From: Microcaldota archaeon
GTDB taxonomy: Archaea > Micrarchaeota > Micrarchaeia > Micrarchaeales > Micrarchaeaceae
Length of the DNA: 45,709 bases
Assembly: GCA_021806095.1 (NCBI GenBank)
Contig: JAJZYD010000003.1
Coordinates: forward strand, 1-45,709
Direction: 5' to 3'
The notes below the pieces were generated by a model that saw nothing but the letters and a program-made list of their open reading frames with translations, was not told where the DNA came from and did no database searches. Both the position numbers and the translations under genes were made by a program. Below are positions 36,449 through 45,497 of the stretch, in pieces; positions within the stretch are counted from its first letter, which is position 1; each line of letters opens with the position of its first letter.

Positions 36449-37108
36449 ATGGAGGCCAAAAAAATTTTTAATGAAGTATATAAGATTGATGGCAAAATAG
36501 CTACGCTTAATTTAGTAAGGGGCAAAAAAGTATATAACGAAGTGCTTGTAGATATAAATGGTATTGAATACAGGCTTTGGAACCCCTATCGGAGCAAGCT
36601 TTCAGCAGCTATCTTAAAAGGGCTAAAGACATTCGCAATAAAGAAAGGATCATACGTGCTTTATTTAGGAGCATCAACAGGAACAACATCAAGCCACGTC
36701 AGCGACATTGTTGGCATTGACGGCAGAATTTATGCAGTCGAAATATCTGAAAGGAGCATGCGCGATTTGATTAAACTCTGTGAGATTAGGAATAATATGC
36801 TTCCTATCCTTGAGGATGCAAGCCATCCTGATAGATATGCAGAAGTCATAAACACGTGCGATATAATTTATCAAGATGTGTCTGCAAAGAACCAGGTAGA
36901 AATATTAAGAAACAATTCAAGATTCTTAAAGAAAGGAGGCATTGCCTATTTTATTATAAAATCACAAAGCATAGATATTTCAAGGCCTCCTGAAAAAATA
37001 TTTGAAGAATCTTTGCAAAGCTTGTCAGACATATTTGATGTTGTTGAGAAGTTGACACTTGAACCATATGATAATATGCACATGTTTGCTGTGCTTAAAA
37101 AACGATGA
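36449..37108 (+). CDS. flpA: Fibrillarin-like rRNA/tRNA 2'-O-methyltransferase
   Basis: YRLWNPYRSKLSAAILKG, YLGASTGTTSSHVSDIVG, YAVEISERSMRDL, IYQDVSAKNQVEIL. Confidence 0.93.
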   Translation: MEAKKIFNEVYKIDGKIATLNLVRGKKVYNEVLVDINGIEYRLWNPYRSKLSAAILKGLKTFAIKKGSYVLYLGASTGTTSSHVSDIVGIDGRIYAVEISERSMRDLIKLCEIRNNMLPILEDASHPDRYAEVINTCDIIYQDVSAKNQVEILRNNSRFLKKGGIAYFIIKSQSIDISRPPEKIFEESLQSLSDIFDVVEKLTLEPYDNMHMFAVLKKR

Positions 37109-37917
37109 TTATTGTGAATGATTTAAAAAATATAAATAAAATAATAAAGAAGTTAATTAGCAATTCAACATTGAATACACTTAATATAAATAATCATGAG
37201 GAGTGTGCGTACTGCGGCACAGAAAATATTATTTCAAATAGCATATGGATCTGCACTAATTGCAAGTGCATAAACAGCTCGCTTTCAAAAAAATTGATAA
37301 TGTCTGATCCTGCATTGTTGAAAACAATTTCAGAGATATATGAATTAAGGAAAAGCGAAATGTATGATGATGCGATAGCAAAATATGACGCAATTAAAAA
37401 CTATACTGATGTAAGATTCGCTTATGCTGAAGCTCGCTTATGTAGATATGCATCTGACAAAATACTTGAACAGGTTGATTATAACAGGAAGGATTTTATG
37501 GAGGAGAATGCAGAGCTGAAATCAAAAGCATCTGCATACGAATCAAAAGCGAAGCATCTTTTCTACAAAGTTATTTATGCTGTCCAGAATGCGCAGAATC
37601 CAACTCAAGAAATGCTGTTCATGCGGGCCATGGCTGAGCTTGAGCTCAAAAGATTCAAGGATGTTAAAGCAACACTCACATTGTTTGATTCATCCGCTCC
37701 AAATCCAATGGCTGATTACACCAAGGTGTTGTTTGATATTGAAATAAAAGATTACGAAAACGCTTTGGATAATGCATCCAAGATTATATCCAGCAACATA
37801 TTCAAAGAGAATGCTTTTTATTATGCTGCCATAATTCTAATAAAATTAAATAAAATAAACGAAGCAAAGAAGATTTTGAAAGCGTTATCAAAGTTCAATC
37901 TAAAAATTCTACAATAG
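37105..37917 (+). CDS. Zinc-ribbon protein with TPR-like helical region
   Basis: CAYCGTENIISNSIWICTNCKC then helical repeats (AYAEARLCRYASDK...). Start overlaps the flpA stop. Confidence 0.6.
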   Translation: MIIVNDLKNINKIIKKLISNSTLNTLNINNHEECAYCGTENIISNSIWICTNCKCINSSLSKKLIMSDPALLKTISEIYELRKSEMYDDAIAKYDAIKNYTDVRFAYAEARLCRYASDKILEQVDYNRKDFMEENAELKSKASAYESKAKHLFYKVIYAVQNAQNPTQEMLFMRAMAELELKRFKDVKATLTLFDSSAPNPMADYTKVLFDIEIKDYENALDNASKIISSNIFKENAFYYAAIILIKLNKINEAKKILKALSKFNLKILQ

Positions 37918-37941
37918 GAAGTTGTTTTTTAATTTTATAAT

Positions 37942-37973
37942 TTTATAAACACGTAACGGAATTTATAAACAAA
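37942..37973 (+). repeat. Iteron-like repeat cluster D (left flank of R-M island)
   Basis: TTTATAAACACG (37942) and TTTATAAACAAA (37962), 20-bp spacing. Confidence 0.5.
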
Positions 37974-38053
37974 ACGGGTTTTAACAATGTTCAGACCCTT
38001 CATTTGTTTGTTGTTCATGTAGTCGCTGCTTATATATATTATTTCATATTACA

Positions 38054-38069
38054 TTATGTATATACATAA
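38054..38069. promoter_or_regulatory. 16-bp perfect palindrome upstream of the AbrB-like gene
   Basis: TTATGTATATACATAA. Confidence 0.5.
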
Positions 38070-38149
38070 AAAAGGTATACTTTATCAAATGATATTATGG
38101 TAATATAGTAAGCTTTAAATACTTTTTCAAAGTATATCTATCTGATAAG

Positions 38150-38437
38150 ATGTCACGTAAGAAGATGAATATACGCCAGCAGCAAATCGGGCGTATGCAA
38201 ATGAGGATAAAATATACGAAGTTGCCAGAGGACGTCAAGAAGGCGATAGTATCAATGCCTTATATAGTAGAAGAAACAGTAAAACTCACATGGGATGGAA
38301 GGCAATTTATATTAAGGATACCTAAGGAAATTGCAGAGGAAGCAGGAATAACTGCTGAAAATCAGATCAAATTTAAATTTATTAAATTCCCTCCAGAATC
38401 TAATGAAAAATCCAAACTTGAAATAAGTGTATTATAA
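38150..38437 (+). CDS. AbrB/SpoVT-like small DNA-binding protein
   Basis: VKLTWDGRQFILRIPKEIAEEAGITAENQIKFKF resembles a swapped-hairpin AbrB domain. Confidence 0.6.
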   Translation: MSRKKMNIRQQQIGRMQMRIKYTKLPEDVKKAIVSMPYIVEETVKLTWDGRQFILRIPKEIAEEAGITAENQIKFKFIKFPPESNEKSKLEISVL

Positions 38438-38643
38438 TGGAAGAATATAGTTCATTAGAAAGGAAGATTATGTCAATACTCTATTCTGCAGGAAAACCAC
38501 TGCCTACAGAAAGGATAGCAAAGCAGTTAGATATATCAAGGATAACCGCAAAGAAGTATCTTATAGGTTTAGAAAAATATAAGAAAGTGGAAAGCAAGAA
38601 AGAAGGAAGAGCGGTGTATTGGTGGTTAAGCCTAAAGAAGTGA
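38437..38643 (+). CDS. Small winged-helix regulator
   Basis: SLERKIMSILYSAGKPLPTERIAKQLDISRITAKKYLIGLEKYKKVESKKEGRAVYWWL. Start overlaps the previous stop (TAATG). Confidence 0.7.
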   Translation: MEEYSSLERKIMSILYSAGKPLPTERIAKQLDISRITAKKYLIGLEKYKKVESKKEGRAVYWWLSLKK

Positions 38644-38674
38644 GGTGTTCAAATGGATAAAAAGTATATTATAG

Positions 38675-38698
38675 TAAAGTATATAAGATTATACTTTA
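38675..38698. promoter_or_regulatory. Inverted repeat, candidate operator
   Basis: TAAAGTATA-TAAGAT-TATACTTTA, 9-bp arms, 6-bp spacer. Confidence 0.5.
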
Positions 38699-38717
38699 AT
38701 AATACTATTAAAAATGC

Positions 38718-38825
38718 ATGGCTAACGCTATACAAATAGGCCGATTGTTTCTAGGTGTGAGTAGTAAATTAAGAACTTATTTGTTAGCTGCTGCTGTGCA
38801 TATTTTTGGTGCTTTGTATGGATAA
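38718..38825 (+). CDS. Possible 35-aa leader peptide overlapping methyltransferase start
   Basis: MANAIQIGRLFLGVSSKLRTYLLAAAVHIFGALYG*; stop overlaps the methyltransferase ATG (ATGGATAA). Confidence 0.35.
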   Translation: MANAIQIGRLFLGVSSKLRTYLLAAAVHIFGALYG

Positions 38826-39684
38826 TTGGTATAACAATGTATATTATAAAGATGCAAGAAATATGTCAGAGATACCTGACAACTCTGTGCATCTAATCAT
38901 TACGTCGCCACCTTACTTCAACATAAAGGATTATGCTAAGGATGGCTATCAAAACAAGAAAATAGCAAGCAAGACAAATGGACAGATTGGGGATATTGAC
39001 AATTATAATGACTACATAAAGGAACTATCTAATGTATGGAAAGAGTGCGAGAGAGTTCTCACACCAAACGGCAAGCTGGCAATAAATGTCCCATTAATGC
39101 CCATACTGAAAGATAAAATGAATACGCATCACAATAGACACATCTTTGACATAAATGCAAGCATAGAGACCTCAATTTTGCAAAACAACAAAAAGTTATA
39201 TCTGTTTGACTTGTTTATTTGGAATAGAAAGAACCCAACAAAGAAGCTTATGTTTGGGTCTTATCCGTATCCGAGAAATTTCTATGCACAAAACACAATA
39301 GAATTTATAACTATATATGTGAAGGAAGGTAAGCCACTAAACAATGTATCAGAAAAAATAAAAGAAGCAAGCAAACTGACTGAAAGCGAATGGGTAGAAT
39401 ATACCAAACAAGTATGGGATATTGCCATACCCAACAAGGCAGACCTTGCCTTTGGAAAGCATTGTGCGATTATGCCAGAGGAGATAGTTAGAAGGTGCGT
39501 AAGGCTATTCAGTTTTGAGGGGGATGTAGTATTAGACCCATTCGTAGGCTCTGGCACTACATTGAAAGTGGCAAAAGAATTGAATAGGCATTATGTAGGC
39601 TATGAGTTATCAAAAGCATACAAGTCAGTTATAGACAAGAAGCTTGCCACGCAGAACAAGCTTGTATCTTTTGTATATGAATAG
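38818..39684 (+). CDS. DNA methyltransferase, beta class, likely N4-cytosine (TSPPY)
   Basis: IITSPPYFNIKDYAKDGYQ (motif IV) near N-terminus and VLDPFVGSGTTLKVAKELNRHYVGYELS (motif I) near C-terminus. ATG 38818 within ORF 38806-39684. Confidence 0.85.
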   Translation: MDNWYNNVYYKDARNMSEIPDNSVHLIITSPPYFNIKDYAKDGYQNKKIASKTNGQIGDIDNYNDYIKELSNVWKECERVLTPNGKLAINVPLMPILKDKMNTHHNRHIFDINASIETSILQNNKKLYLFDLFIWNRKNPTKKLMFGSYPYPRNFYAQNTIEFITIYVKEGKPLNNVSEKIKEASKLTESEWVEYTKQVWDIAIPNKADLAFGKHCAIMPEEIVRRCVRLFSFEGDVVLDPFVGSGTTLKVAKELNRHYVGYELSKAYKSVIDKKLATQNKLVSFVYE

Positions 39685-40487
39685 TGATAATAATGTTAAA
39701 ACTAAACAAGATTTACAATATGGACTGCTTTGAATTTTTAGAAAAGATTGATAATGGAATAATTGATTTGGTCGTAATAGACCCACCTTATAATATGAAT
39801 AAAGGTAAGTGGGACAAATTTGCATCTCAGGATGCGTTTTTTAATTTTACTTACAAGTGGATAGATGCTGTAATACCAAAGCTAAAGGATACTGGAAGCT
39901 TCTATGTATTCAACACACCATTCAATTCTGCTTACATACTGCAATATTTGATAGGTAAAGGTCTTGTCTTTCAGAATTGGATAACGTGGGATAAAAGAGA
40001 TGGCTTTTCGGCTACTAAAAAGAGATACACTAATGGTCAAGAGACAATTCTATTCTTTACAAAAAGCAAGGAACATATCTTTAATGCTGATAAGATAAGA
40101 GTGCCTTATGAATCAGAGGACAGAATCAAGCACGCAAAGGTAAAAGGCATACTAAAGAATGGAGAACGATGGTATCCTAATCCTAAAGGTAGATTATGTG
40201 GTGAGGTATGGCACATAACAAGCGAAAGACTAAAAAATAAAGTTAATGGTAAAACGCCTAAACTACCACACGCAACAACAAAGCCTTTGGAATTGATAGA
40301 GAGGATAGTCAATGCAAGCAGTAATAAAGAAGATTTGGTTTTGGACTGCTTTATGGGAAGTGGCACAACTGCAATAGCTTGTAAGGAATTAGGAAGGAAC
40401 TTTATTGGATGCGACAGCAATAAGGGCTATGTCGATATAGCAAGAAAACACTTGCATGAGATAGAGAAACAGAAAAAATTAACATAA
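39684..40487 (+). CDS. DNA methyltransferase, beta class, likely N6-adenine (DPPY)
   Basis: LVVIDPPYNMNKGKWDKF near N-terminus and VLDCFMGSGTTAIACKELGRNFIGCDSN near C-terminus. ATG 39692 (MLKLNK) also possible. Confidence 0.85.
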   Translation: MIIMLKLNKIYNMDCFEFLEKIDNGIIDLVVIDPPYNMNKGKWDKFASQDAFFNFTYKWIDAVIPKLKDTGSFYVFNTPFNSAYILQYLIGKGLVFQNWITWDKRDGFSATKKRYTNGQETILFFTKSKEHIFNADKIRVPYESEDRIKHAKVKGILKNGERWYPNPKGRLCGEVWHITSERLKNKVNGKTPKLPHATTKPLELIERIVNASSNKEDLVLDCFMGSGTTAIACKELGRNFIGCDSNKGYVDIARKHLHEIEKQKKLT

Positions 40488-40522
40488 GAAAGGTTTAAAT
40501 AAATTAACTGCTTTTTACTAAC

Positions 40523-41926
40523 ATGCAATTAGTGGAGAACGATAAAGTCAAGCTAAAGGATGTAGTATCAAACCTTATCAAACATAGCACAGAGATAAGA
40601 CTTGCCATAGCTTTTATCAGGAAGTCAGGTGTAGATGCCATAAGTAGCGACCTCCAAGCCTTCAAGAACAGAGGAGGCAAACTCAAACTTATATTCGGAG
40701 AGGACTTTAATCTAACTGATAGTTCCGCTTTGGACTATCTTTTAGGTCAAGGGGCAGAGATGAAAGTGTATCTGTCAAGAAAAGGTGTATATCACCCTAA
40801 GATTTGGATGTTCAAACTTACTGACAAATGGGTCATAGTAATAGGCTCATCAAATCTAAGTAAGGATGCACTTACCAACAATATAGAAGCAAGTCTTGTA
40901 TTTGAAGGAATAGATTCTGATGTGGATGTTCAAACTTGCCTTTTTGCCTATGATGTCCTTTGGAAATCTGACCGCTGTTTTCCAATAGGTACTGAATACA
41001 TAAAGAACTACAAAAACGAGACCAAAAAGTACTTCAAAAGACGCATCTCAATAAACACTACTGGAACTATCAATTCAGTGCAGTCTTATAACACTCTAAA
41101 AGATGTAATTAAAAGCTGGATTGACATACCAGAAAGTGACAAGTTTGAAAAGAACTCTATTTGGAGGGGCTGGTATTTTCTACCTAATCAGACAGCGATA
41201 ACGGATGATTACCTAAGCAAGCTTCAAAAGATACTGGTATTTATCAAGAGTCATAAACAATACGGAACTACTGGCTATCTTGATATACCTTCAAACACCA
41301 CTGGAGAGCAAATTTGCAAGGACATACAAACCTATGCTGGCATAACATTCAAGAGAAAGAGCCTTAAACTATCAGCAAGAGACCTATTTGTAAGACAACA
41401 AAAGAACTATTTGGAGAAATTGGGATTTATAACAGAAGAGCAGACAAAGATAAGGCTAACAGACTTAGGAGACAAATTTTCTACTGTGAATATGGCTGGT
41501 ATGAAAGCAATATATGAAGATATCCTTGTTGAATATAAGTGGTATGAGATACGCCCATTCTTGTTTATCCTCAGATTATTGCTGGCACTGCAAGATAACA
41601 CTATGTTGTATGATGAGTTTAGCTTCTTTGTAATCCACACAAAGCACGATACTGAGTTTGATGTAGTATATGATTCAATTATGACATATAGATTACTTCC
41701 ACCATCAGACAAGACAAACTTAACACGAGAAGTAAATACATATCTCCAAAGTTCAAAGGGAACAGGTGCTAAAATGGTAATTGAGGATTATAACCTTAAA
41801 CTTGACTTCTTTTTGAAGGATATAAGTGTTTTTGACTATTTGGACTATAATAACACTACTGGAACGCTTAAACTTACAGATATAGCTAAAGCACAGAAAA
41901 TATTGATTGATTCAGACTATCCATAG
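40523..41926 (+). CDS. PLD-family nuclease, probable restriction endonuclease
   Basis: Single HKD-like motif YHPKIWMFKLTDKWVIVIGSSNLSKDALTNNIEASLVFEG in N-terminal third; ~280-aa C-terminal part; downstream of two DNA methyltransferases. Confidence 0.72.
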   Translation: MQLVENDKVKLKDVVSNLIKHSTEIRLAIAFIRKSGVDAISSDLQAFKNRGGKLKLIFGEDFNLTDSSALDYLLGQGAEMKVYLSRKGVYHPKIWMFKLTDKWVIVIGSSNLSKDALTNNIEASLVFEGIDSDVDVQTCLFAYDVLWKSDRCFPIGTEYIKNYKNETKKYFKRRISINTTGTINSVQSYNTLKDVIKSWIDIPESDKFEKNSIWRGWYFLPNQTAITDDYLSKLQKILVFIKSHKQYGTTGYLDIPSNTTGEQICKDIQTYAGITFKRKSLKLSARDLFVRQQKNYLEKLGFITEEQTKIRLTDLGDKFSTVNMAGMKAIYEDILVEYKWYEIRPFLFILRLLLALQDNTMLYDEFSFFVIHTKHDTEFDVVYDSIMTYRLLPPSDKTNLTREVNTYLQSSKGTGAKMVIEDYNLKLDFFLKDISVFDYLDYNNTTGTLKLTDIAKAQKILIDSDYP

Positions 41927-41928
41927 AA

Positions 41929-42113
41929 TTTATAAACAAAGAGAGGAATTTATAAACAAAAGGCATTTTATAAACAACGCCCTCACGTGCGGCTTCGCTC
42001 CTTTAGTCCTTGAATTTGACTACTTTAGGAGCAACATTCAGACTTTAGGAGCATAATTGACTTTATGAGCAAAGTCCTCTCGTGTTAAAAGCTTAAATAC
42101 TACTTTATCAACA
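41929..42113 (+). repeat. Iteron-like repeat cluster E (right flank of R-M island)
   Basis: TTTATAAACAAA (41929), TTTATAAACAAA (41949), TTTATAAACAAC (41967), TTTAGGAGCAAC (42024), TTTAGGAGCATA (42044), TTTATGAGCAAA (42062), TTTATCAACAAA (42104); most steps 18-20 bp or multiples. Confidence 0.6.
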
Positions 42114-42917: not shown

Positions 42918-45497
42918 ATGGTCAGTATTAATAGAACACCTAGAGAATCCATTATCAATTCATACTCAGAACGTAATGGTTTTGTAGATTTAAATAATCT
43001 ATCAAAAGATAAAAACTTTCATACATTCAATGAACTAATAAACGATGCAGACAAATTAAAATATTCAAGAGAAGATGCCATACATTTAATTAATAATCTT
43101 ATATTAATGTTAAAAGACACTGGCAAAGTTCCAATACTTATCAATTCAATTTCTGATTTTGAATCACCAACTCATAATTATATTAAGAATTTAATAGAAA
43201 TAAGCAAGAATATAAATAATAAATTTCTAAATATATTATATGATTTTAATAATGTTGAATTTTCAAGATATATTAATATATTTAAAATAATTAAAAATGA
43301 AAGTGATAATGCAGATAATTTTAATGTTTACAAATCAATTATAGAAGATCCTAATAAGTTAAAAAAGATAAAACTTCTATTTAACAATGATTTTGATGCA
43401 ATTATAGGAAATCTTAATAAAATTGCACCAGAAGATGCATCAACTATTATTCTAAATTCAATTAATATTTTAAATTCAGATAGCTATTACCAAACTGCTA
43501 TTGATTATCTTAGTGCTTCTAAATTTCAAACACCTAATATAAAATTTTTATTAGAAATTAAAACAATAGAAGCAATAAAATATTTGTTTGACAATGATAT
43601 TATTGATATAAGTGATGAAAATATTTTAAAAGTAGCATGCATGTTTCATTATTGTGGTAATAGTTTTATTAAATTTATAAAATATTTAAATAAAACTAGC
43701 AGTCCCTTTGGCATGAAAAAATTTTTTAATTCTATAAGCATTAATTTTGACAAGGATGAAGAAGATATATTAAAATATATAATAAAAAAACAGGAAGAAT
43801 TAGGAAAAAAATTCGATGATATCAGTGAAGTAGTAGGGAGTATTATAGTAATAGCTAAAGTAATGATGAATATTGGTTATATAAAACAAGGCGATTATAA
43901 GGAAATAGATTACTTAATTTTGGAAGGAAATAGGCAAAATTTGTTGATTTTTGAGAAAAATATTCTCTTTTTAGATATTAAGAAGATTAAAGAAAGCAAA
44001 GCATTTGAATATATAAAATTACACAAAGATAAAAATATAACTGTTAAAGATAGAATCGATTTATTAAATAAATTGAGTTTGTTATTTAGATTATCAAAGG
44101 AGAGTGTAATTGATGATGAAAGTGTCAATAAATTAATTGAAAATTTAAATGCAGCAATCATTACATATAAGACTAATAATAAAATTAAAGAGTTATCATT
44201 AAATAATCTAATTGACAAAATGTCCGAATATGCTCCAAATGCTTCTAAATATATCAAAGAACATATAAATGCACTTGGCTCTATTTTTATTAATGATAAT
44301 GTATTAAATGAATTGAAAAACCTAATTTCACAGTATTTGACAATTAAATTAAATTTCAATAATAGTGATATAAAAATCAATATAGATAATATATATGCAG
44401 TTTATGTTGAAAATGTTAAAAAGAAAGGAAAAAAGATAAATTCAAATCCTAAATATGAAAAAAAATTTCTAAGGGATTTTAAAAGATACAACGATCTAGC
44501 TGAAATCAACATTGAAAACACAACAATTAAAAGAATTATAACTGATTTAAATATCAATAAATTAATATTATCCAAACTGACAGGAATAGATGAAAGTAAA
44601 ATATTTACAGATAAGTTGTCAAAAGAATTTATAAATGTAATCGAAGGTTACATCAATGGTTCATTATACAATGAACTAATATTTGATAATAAAACAATAT
44701 CAAATATAAAATATAATAGGCAGATTCTGCGTGAATTAATAATAAAATACTATCAAGGTGGCAATGCTGCAGCAATAGATTATATTATGGGATTTGAAGA
44801 AAGCAAAGATATAATTGAAAATATGAAACAGAGAGGTACAAATATAGATGCAATAAATAATTTGAAATTATATTACAAAATTTCTGCTCCAATCAAATTT
44901 AATGTGGGGGATAAAAATATTTTTAAAAATAAAAAAGAGAACATAATATTTTACAACGAAACAGATATAATAAATAAATTAAATTCTGGAGTTTATAATA
45001 AAACATGTTTAAACATAATTAATGGAGAAAATTCGTTTGGTGCAATTGCATATGCTGTAGATATTAATAATTTTATAATATACATAGCAAAAGACGATGA
45101 GGATAAAAAAATATTTGGCAGATTGTCTTTAATAGAAAGTGATAAAGGTTTTATCTTAAATTCAGATATTTATTTGAATAATGATTATAAAAGATGTATA
45201 GATATAGATATTATAATAGATTTTCTGGAAAAGTTTTCAGAAATTTCAGGAAGAACATTAATAATACCTGATAAAATAGTTTTAAAATCAGAATTCTTTA
45301 GTTATGATTCATTAAAAAAAGCAAATAAAACATTAGGAATAAGAGCTGATTTGAATTGCAGAATTGATAAAGCAATATCCTCTATTATTTATTCTAGTAT
45401 TTTTGGAGATTTTTTTGGAAAGACCAAAAATCTAACTAATTTATCTAATTTTAATAAGCGAATAGAGGGATATATTATAAAACCAAAGCAAGATTAA
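42918..45497 (+). CDS. Large protein of unknown function (859 aa)
   Basis: Long uninterrupted ORF, helical N/I/K-rich, with a distinct C-terminal segment TCLNIINGENSFGAIAYAVDINNFIIYIAKDDEDKKIFGRLSLIES. Confidence 0.8.
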   Translation: MVSINRTPRESIINSYSERNGFVDLNNLSKDKNFHTFNELINDADKLKYSREDAIHLINNLILMLKDTGKVPILINSISDFESPTHNYIKNLIEISKNINNKFLNILYDFNNVEFSRYINIFKIIKNESDNADNFNVYKSIIEDPNKLKKIKLLFNNDFDAIIGNLNKIAPEDASTIILNSINILNSDSYYQTAIDYLSASKFQTPNIKFLLEIKTIEAIKYLFDNDIIDISDENILKVACMFHYCGNSFIKFIKYLNKTSSPFGMKKFFNSISINFDKDEEDILKYIIKKQEELGKKFDDISEVVGSIIVIAKVMMNIGYIKQGDYKEIDYLILEGNRQNLLIFEKNILFLDIKKIKESKAFEYIKLHKDKNITVKDRIDLLNKLSLLFRLSKESVIDDESVNKLIENLNAAIITYKTNNKIKELSLNNLIDKMSEYAPNASKYIKEHINALGSIFINDNVLNELKNLISQYLTIKLNFNNSDIKINIDNIYAVYVENVKKKGKKINSNPKYEKKFLRDFKRYNDLAEINIENTTIKRIITDLNINKLILSKLTGIDESKIFTDKLSKEFINVIEGYINGSLYNELIFDNKTISNIKYNRQILRELIIKYYQGGNAAAIDYIMGFEESKDIIENMKQRGTNIDAINNLKLYYKISAPIKFNVGDKNIFKNKKENIIFYNETDIINKLNSGVYNKTCLNIINGENSFGAIAYAVDINNFIIYIAKDDEDKKIFGRLSLIESDKGFILNSDIYLNNDYKRCIDIDIIIDFLEKFSEISGRTLIIPDKIVLKSEFFSYDSLKKANKTLGIRADLNCRIDKAISSIIYSSIFGDFFGKTKNLTNLSNFNKRIEGYIIKPKQD

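Follow-up and report, generated by a model that had tools for sequence, protein, structure and literature searches.

Which kind of restriction-modification (R-M) system is encoded by a pair of DNA methyltransferase (MTase) genes followed by a gene for a PLD nuclease in this archaeon? A first reading, made from the sequence only, pointed to systems of the BfiI or NgoFVII type, but other Type IIS systems have to be compared. MboII and HpyAII are Type IIS R-M systems that recognise GAAGA and cut at 8/7; BfiI and BmrI are PLD Type IIS endonucleases with the site ACTGGG; the N.BspD6I/AlwI family comprises Type IIS/IIT enzymes with a PD-(D/E)XK nuclease. To our knowledge, all GAAGA endonucleases characterised so far depend on metal; that of HpyAII is of the HNH type. 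From our analysis of a stretch of 45,709 nt (hereafter, the window), we consider it probable that the cassette is a GAAGA-type Type IIS R-M system with a PLD/BspD6I-type endonuclease, whose predicted site is 5'-GAAGA-3'/5'-TCTTC-3'.

Results

All genes of the cassette (region 37921-41926) are intact and lie on the plus strand, in the order two small regulators, M2-like MTase, M1-like MTase, PLD endonuclease (Table 1). The sequence-only reading had announced two beta-class MTases (TSPPY and DPPY) followed by a protein with a single PLD motif, and the reading frames and Pfam matches agree with it; the frames also confirm the two small regulator genes that it placed 5' of the MTases.

Table 1. 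Coordinates of the cassette features in the window
Feature	Position	Strand	Basis
42-nt imperfect direct repeat, left copy	37942..37983	.	repeat comparison, shuffles
95-aa AbrB/MazE-like (swapped-hairpin-like) putative regulator	38150..38437	+	weak Pfam MazE match, below cut-off
68-aa winged-HTH putative regulator	38437..38643	+	Pfam HTH_11 1.8e-6, above cut-off
M2-like beta-class MTase, TSPPY	38818..39684	+	Pfam; homology; M2.HpyAII role (PMC7494987)
M1-like beta-class MTase, DPPY	39693..40487	+	PDB 1g60 match; alignment
archaeal TATA-like element TTTAAATA, 29 nt before the endonuclease ATG	40494..40501	+	consensus match only
467-aa predicted Type IIS endonuclease	40523..41926	+	Pfam, BfiI alignment, profile comparison, structure model
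42-nt imperfect direct repeat, right copy	41929..41970	.	repeat comparison, shuffles

Both MTases belong to the beta class because motif IV precedes motif I: TSPPY lies 5' of DPFVGSGTT in the M2-like enzyme (Pfam N6_N4_Mtase, 4e-48), and DPPY lies 5' of DCFMGSGTT in the M1-like one (same family, 1e-65). The M2-like frame can be read from TTG 38806 (38806-39684), with homology starting after ATG 38818, the probable start; in the M1-like frame (39684-40487) the probable start is ATG 39693. The M1-like protein is a full-length homologue of M1.MboII (PDB 1g60; 65% identity, E 1.4e-120), and the M2-like protein, 60-74% identical to the M2 genes adjoining M1 relatives in other loci, is of the TSPPY family paired with M1 in these relatives. 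We assign the pair to the Type IIS family of MboII and HpyAII (GAAGA), which is represented in 36 bacterial loci (L009-L044, the relatives compared below). The earlier claim of a Type IIS-like cassette with two MTases and a PLD nuclease is upheld, but not the claim that BfiI or NgoFVII is the closest system; MboII/HpyAII is nearer.

M2.HpyAII turns the first C of TCTTC into m4C (PMC7494987), and by homology the M2-like enzyme is predicted to be an N4-cytosine MTase for the same base; the M1-like enzyme is a predicted N6-adenine MTase for the last A of GAAGA. The earlier proposal of m6A on one strand and m4C on the other is therefore supported as a prediction, by analogy with HpyAII. The two enzymes would act on opposite strands, so that each strand of the asymmetric site would have its own protecting enzyme.

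The predicted endonuclease consists of a PLD nuclease domain (about residues 1-165) and a BspD6I/MboII-type DNA-recognition domain (about residues 210-430). Its single HxK...GSSN motif (Pfam PLDc_2, 1.7e-10) is of the BfiI family: H105, K107, N125 and E136 of BfiI align with H91, K93, N111 and E122 at unchanged spacing, and these catalytic residues are kept in the PLD proteins of loci L009 and L013. A structure model of the PLD protein, of moderate confidence (pLDDT 77, pTM 0.53, with only three full-length members in the underlying alignment), matches SauUSI, BfiI, NgoAVII R and NucT; a recognition-domain fragment, L078, was left out before modelling because its addition misaligned the PLD alignment. 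As in BfiI, the single PLD motif would lead one to expect a homodimer that cleaves without metal through one active site.

The C-terminus is of another kind. An hhalign comparison with the N-terminus of the HNH endonucleases of the family (HNH-R) gave E 5.5e-8 and a score of 58, whereas none of 100 column-permuted decoys scored above 25.8. The N-terminal part of the PLD proteins (PLD-R) found no match in HNH-R; in reciprocal hmmsearch each of the two families retrieves the other among 1008 ORFs. Structure models of the PLD protein (Foldseek probability 1.00, E 1.5e-4) and of an HNH MboII-type endonuclease both match N.BspD6I (6qnz). Pfam RE_AlwI matches the PLD protein at 1.8e-4, below the curated cut-off and over profile positions 2-119 of 441 only. 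The recognition domain is accordingly of the MboII type and of the BspD6I type (AlwI/BspD6I family), and no PD-(D/E)XK nuclease follows it, the protein ending shortly past this domain. A BfiI-like B3 domain was rejected on the same N.BspD6I and MboII-type matches. What the sequence-only reading had called a BfiI/NgoFVII-type enzyme therefore has the catalytic domain in common with BfiI but a recognition domain of the BspD6I/AlwI/MboII type, and the structural comparison with BfiI that it suggested divides in the same way, with the PLD part matching BfiI and the C-terminus N.BspD6I. An AlwI-like domain (L082, E 7.7e-8) and the HNH MboII-type domain (E 5.5e-8) are about equally close to this recognition domain, so that specificity has to be deduced from the gene slot and the MTases instead of the domain itself.

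In the bacterial relatives the gene directly after the M2-M1 pair usually encodes an endonuclease of about 410 aa with a C-terminal HNH; the residue spacing of the Helicobacter saguini enzyme (L039) equals that of H328, H329, N350 and H359 of HpyAII, which have been mutagenised (PMC7494987). L009, L013 and the window have a PLD protein of 467-477 aa in this third-gene slot instead, and no HNH motif was found in any of these proteins. Despite the 60% identity between the PLD proteins of L009 and L013, L013 pairs in the MTase tree with the HNH-bearing L011 at 97-99%, and monophyly of the MTases linked to PLD genes is rejected by the AU test (p 0.0008 for M1+M2, 0.02 for M1, 0.008 for M2). Since these MTases do not form one clade, the nuclease gene has probably been swapped among MTase pairs, which suggests that the cutting domain was exchanged while the kind of DNA-reading domain was kept. 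The PLD-R form is rare: besides the window's own, no full-length relative was found in 301 genomes of the host phylum, none besides that of L013's own genome in 380 genomes of its phylum, and none in 237 genomes of the phylum of L035, a locus whose PLD gene is truncated. The viral contigs scanned yielded no PLD relatives, and in plasmids and phages tblastn matched only the PLD domain of proteins that were of the helicase type or of other kinds.

The repeats that the sequence-only reading saw around the cassette are confirmed (81% identity), the right copy beginning 3 nt past the endonuclease stop codon; when the two flanks were dinucleotide-shuffled 1000 times, such similarity never arose, and the core pattern of the repeats occurs at only these two sites in the whole assembly. 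In agreement with the island claim of that reading, the R-M genes are missing from 13 congeners. No transposase or integrase was recognised within the cassette, and the locus sits at a synteny break, not a clean insertion.

The two regulator genes form a conserved module that also precedes different MTase genes in three archaeal relatives (G258, G120 and G156), and we infer a regulatory role for their products. A TATA-like TTTAAATA box lies 36 nt upstream of the ATG of the 95-aa regulator; the one before the endonuclease gene is possibly a separate promoter, only suggestive because in a TATA-box scan just 7 of 33 window genes had a consensus box at the distance where one is expected.

Discussion

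Recognition of GAAGA with 8/7 downstream cleavage is a prediction from MTase homology. One may argue that the R-M system is real, with its PLD and BspD6I-type domains, but reads another site, such as a related asymmetric sequence or an extended one. The recognition domain is indeed about as close to the AlwI-like domain as to the MboII-type one, specificity may shift within an MTase family, and GAAGA is not avoided within the window (148 observed, 145 expected). Yet the M1-like enzyme keeps 65% identity to M1.MboII over its full length, and the presence of PLD genes beside phylogenetically separate MTases of one family is easiest to understand if the site is common to all; we thus find a different site unlikely, though deserving some weight.

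We attach very little probability to a true BfiI/NgoFVII-type system, in which the PLD nuclease would be joined to a B3-like DNA-binding domain with its own asymmetric site. BfiI is the second-best PDB sequence match and the HKNE residues are common, but only its PLD domain (chain residues 43-146) is matched; the C-terminus instead matches domains of the BspD6I/AlwI/MboII type, and both MTases are MboII-type enzymes. It is highly improbable, too, that the PLD protein serves in defence on its own (as a Type IV, DISARM DrmC-like or other nuclease) and just happens to adjoin an orphan MTase pair. Its best PADLOC matches are SauUSI-type mREase_IV, PbeA and DrmC, but these span the PLD domain only; moreover, the same slot is occupied in three unrelated genomes and the MboII-type endonuclease has a homologous recognition domain. 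A SauUSI-type Type IV enzyme was rejected (467 aa, with no PLD and helicase on one chain), as was DISARM, whose partners are absent.

Like MboII and HpyAII, the window has M2 and M1 MTases and a homologous recognition domain, its genes stand in the order M2-M1-R that most bacterial relatives show, and its direct repeats recall those of 80 bp reported around HpyAII (PMC7494987); unlike them, its endonuclease carries a PLD domain at the N-terminus and lacks an HNH at the C-terminus, the host is an archaeon and an AbrB-like/winged-HTH pair stands 5' of the cassette. With BfiI and BmrI the endonuclease has in common the single-motif PLD domain, the same H-K-N-E and spacing, and the order of nuclease then recognition domain, whereas that domain is BspD6I/MboII-like, not B3-like, and the MTases differ in type. 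The recognition-domain fold and the weak RE_AlwI match link it to N.BspD6I/AlwI, whose nuclease is a C-terminal PD-(D/E)XK instead of an N-terminal PLD. SauUSI and the PLD-wH Type IV enzymes (PMC11037411) likewise have a PLD nuclease domain, but no helicase or m6A-sensing arrangement was found in the window, which has its own cognate MTases.

We propose that the endonuclease would read the same GAAGA site as the MTases through its C-terminal domain and cut outside it, at a distance, by its N-terminal PLD domain. Over evolution, such an enzyme would have taken the place of the usual HNH endonuclease beside GAAGA-type MTase pairs; in the host archaeon, the cassette would stand behind a putative two-protein controller, between direct repeats. 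To a wider proposal we give about even chances: that the BspD6I-type recognition domain serves as an interchangeable aiming module, which evolution has joined to nuclease folds of three unrelated kinds (PD-(D/E)XK in AlwI/BspD6I; HNH in MboII/HpyAII-type enzymes; PLD, fused in the window and a separate subunit in L082), and that PLD genes displaced HNH ones beside GAAGA MTases on more than one occasion. An ultra-small archaeon would then possess an MboII isoschizomer that works without metal, governed by a two-protein archaeal R-M controller of a kind not described before.

With the MTases and recognition-domain family apparently kept and the cutting chemistry changed, the enzyme would exemplify domain exchange cleanly and open the evolution of Type IIS enzymes to direct tests. 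If true, it would provide an EDTA-resistant enzyme with MboII-like specificity, and the conserved regulator pair offers a first handle on how DNA-MTase cassettes may be controlled in these small archaea.

Results and discussion

The window system is well supported as an MboII-type two-methyltransferase cassette combined with a PLD endonuclease that carries a BspD6I/MboII-type recognition domain. The sequence-only reading had proposed a Type IIS-like two-methyltransferase system with a PLD nuclease; the cassette and the PLD endonuclease stand (all three genes are intact and lie where it had placed them), but the closest kin are MboII/HpyAII, not BfiI/NgoFVII.

Coordinates of the cassette, its surroundings and related loci
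Feature	Location	Description
Regulator pair	window 38150-38643	95-aa AbrB/MazE-like and 68-aa winged-HTH genes
M2-like methyltransferase (M2)	window 38806-39684	Pfam N6_N4_Mtase 4e-48; TSPPY
M1-like methyltransferase (M1)	window 39684-40487	Pfam N6_N4_Mtase 1e-65; DPPY
PLD protein	window 40523-41926	PLDc_2 1.7e-10; one HxK...GSSN motif
Tandem units	window 42022-42076	3-4 ACTTTAGGAGCAA-like units, spacing 18-20 nt, just past right flanking repeat
AT-rich open reading frame	window 42918-45497	859 aa; about 21% GC; no Pfam match
Possible intermediate with both nucleases	L035:5407-8637	M2, M1, HNH endonuclease, partial PLD gene
Fusion in MboII-type system	L030:6202-8220	M1 fused to HNH endonuclease, 672 aa
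Fusion in MboII-type system	L044:5350-7041	M2 fused to M1, 563 aa
Split operon	L082:4532-7222 (= L078)	AlwI-like recognition protein (274 aa, Pfam RE_AlwI 1e-24), PLD nuclease (308 aa), methyltransferase
Regulator pair	L132:7432-7951	
Regulator pair	L140:7028-7548	
Regulator pair	L141:1574-2127	

The methyltransferase pair

Both methyltransferases are beta class, as had been claimed, since TSPPY and DPPY each precede the glycine motif; internal ATGs at 38818 (M2) and 39693 (M1) are the likelier starts, because homology sets in just after them. M1 is 65% identical along its length to M1.MboII (PDB 1g60; E 1.4e-120). Scanning an M1 alignment against 84,980 genomes gave 60 loci, among which L009-L044 carry M1 at 53-72% identity, nearly always adjoined by M2 (60-74%; L015 has no M2 above 50% identity, and L043 is in pieces). 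In HpyAII, the Helicobacter pylori isoschizomer, GAAGA is methylated by M1 at its last A, and TCTTC by M2 at N4 of its first C (PMC7494987). Homology to these enzymes thus predicts that one strand carries m6A and the other m4C, the same chemistry that the sequence-only reading had reached, and GAAGA would be the putative target.

Genomic setting and regulators

The host is an archaeon (fibrillarin is encoded upstream; assembly 782 kb, 92% complete). In agreement with the proposed island, the PLD protein is absent from all 13 congeners, which yielded only partial matches to M1 and none of comparable quality. In most of them the glutamyl-tRNA synthetase gene adjoins the homologue of window 37105-37917, and in the host it lies on another contig beside a different neighbour, so the cassette sits at a synteny break. 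The suspected flanking repeats are a 42-nt direct repeat (81%) bracketing the cassette and found nowhere else in the assembly, reminiscent of the 80 bp direct repeats that permit loss and regain of HpyAII (PMC7494987); no transposase or integrase was recognised at the cassette.

Two small regulator genes do precede it. The same pair stands beside a different Type II system in one archaeon of the host's phylum, G258 (RAMA-domain methyltransferase, endonuclease family PDLC03497), and directly upstream of another methyltransferase-like gene in each of two more (G120, G156); G291 has a further weak pair, with no methyltransferase found within the 5 kb seen. Four archaea of this phylum, the host included, keep the pair directly upstream of DNA methyltransferase genes of unrelated kinds. 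Given this recurrence, it is probably a two-protein controller module of DNA-methyltransferase cassettes, a role it would also play in the window.

The endonuclease and its recognition domain

The claim of a BfiI/NgoFVII-type enzyme holds for the catalytic residues; the C-terminal domain is of BspD6I/MboII type and the methyltransferases of MboII type. H91, K93, N111 and E122, all present in the PLD proteins of L009 and L013, align without intervening gaps with BfiI H105, K107, N125 and E136, a numbering that agrees with counting along the alignment. The AlphaFold2 model (pLDDT 77, pTM 0.53) matches SauUSI, BfiI, the NgoAVII R protein and NucT in its PLD part. The HKNE residues of BfiI are catalytic (PMC4392985), and the enzyme is a metal-free homodimer with one shared active site (PMC4081073); by analogy, the single PLD motif would imply the same arrangement here, and we infer metal independence and cleavage at a distance from the site.

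In most of L009-L044, the gene directly after M1 encodes a protein of ~410 aa whose C-terminal part bears an HNH motif; all three tested match Type II restriction enzyme family PDLC03506 in PADLOC, and in Helicobacter saguini (L039) the HNH spacing is that of the mutagenised H328, H329, N350 and H359 of HpyAII. (The class of MboII itself is disputed, PD-(D/E)XK in PMC7494987 versus HNH in PMC4392985; the relatives collected here bear HNH.) Profile-profile comparison matches the C-terminal part of the PLD protein to the N-terminal part of the HNH enzymes (full length E 5.5e-7; domains alone E 5.5e-8, score 58.3, against at most 25.8 for 100 column-permuted decoys and 17.1 for the reversed profile). 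The PLD domain itself yields no match, and single-direction HMM searches among 1008 ORFs concur (E about 1e-5 either way). Both models find N.BspD6I with probability 1.00 (HNH enzyme, pLDDT 88, top match, E 3e-3; PLD protein, E 1.5e-4), and secondary-structure order is the same throughout the recognition domain. The AlwI-like protein of L082 is about as near to this domain as the HNH enzymes are (E 7.7e-8), therefore the domain tells the family and not the target sequence; the L082 set is a possible two-subunit restriction system.

Probable exchange of the nuclease

A PLD protein of 467-477 aa fills the HNH slot in the window, L009 (a Bacillota MAG) and L013 (Komeilibacteria), with 33-36% identity between the window and the other two and 60% between those. 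In L035 a PLD gene starts directly past the HNH stop codon and ends at the contig edge. In trees of M1, M2 and M1+M2, the L013 methyltransferases cluster with those of the HNH system L011 (support 97-99%, M1 and M1+M2), and L010 and L012, likewise HNH systems, are close to those of the window and of L009. A grouping of the three PLD-linked rows, defined by the neighbouring nuclease independently of the trees, is rejected (AU p 0.0008 combined, 0.02 M1, 0.008 M2). Since L009 and L013 have closely related PLD proteins and the PLD-linked methyltransferases do not form one clade, the endonuclease gene and the methyltransferase pair have different histories, the simplest reading being that a PLD gene took the place of the HNH gene.
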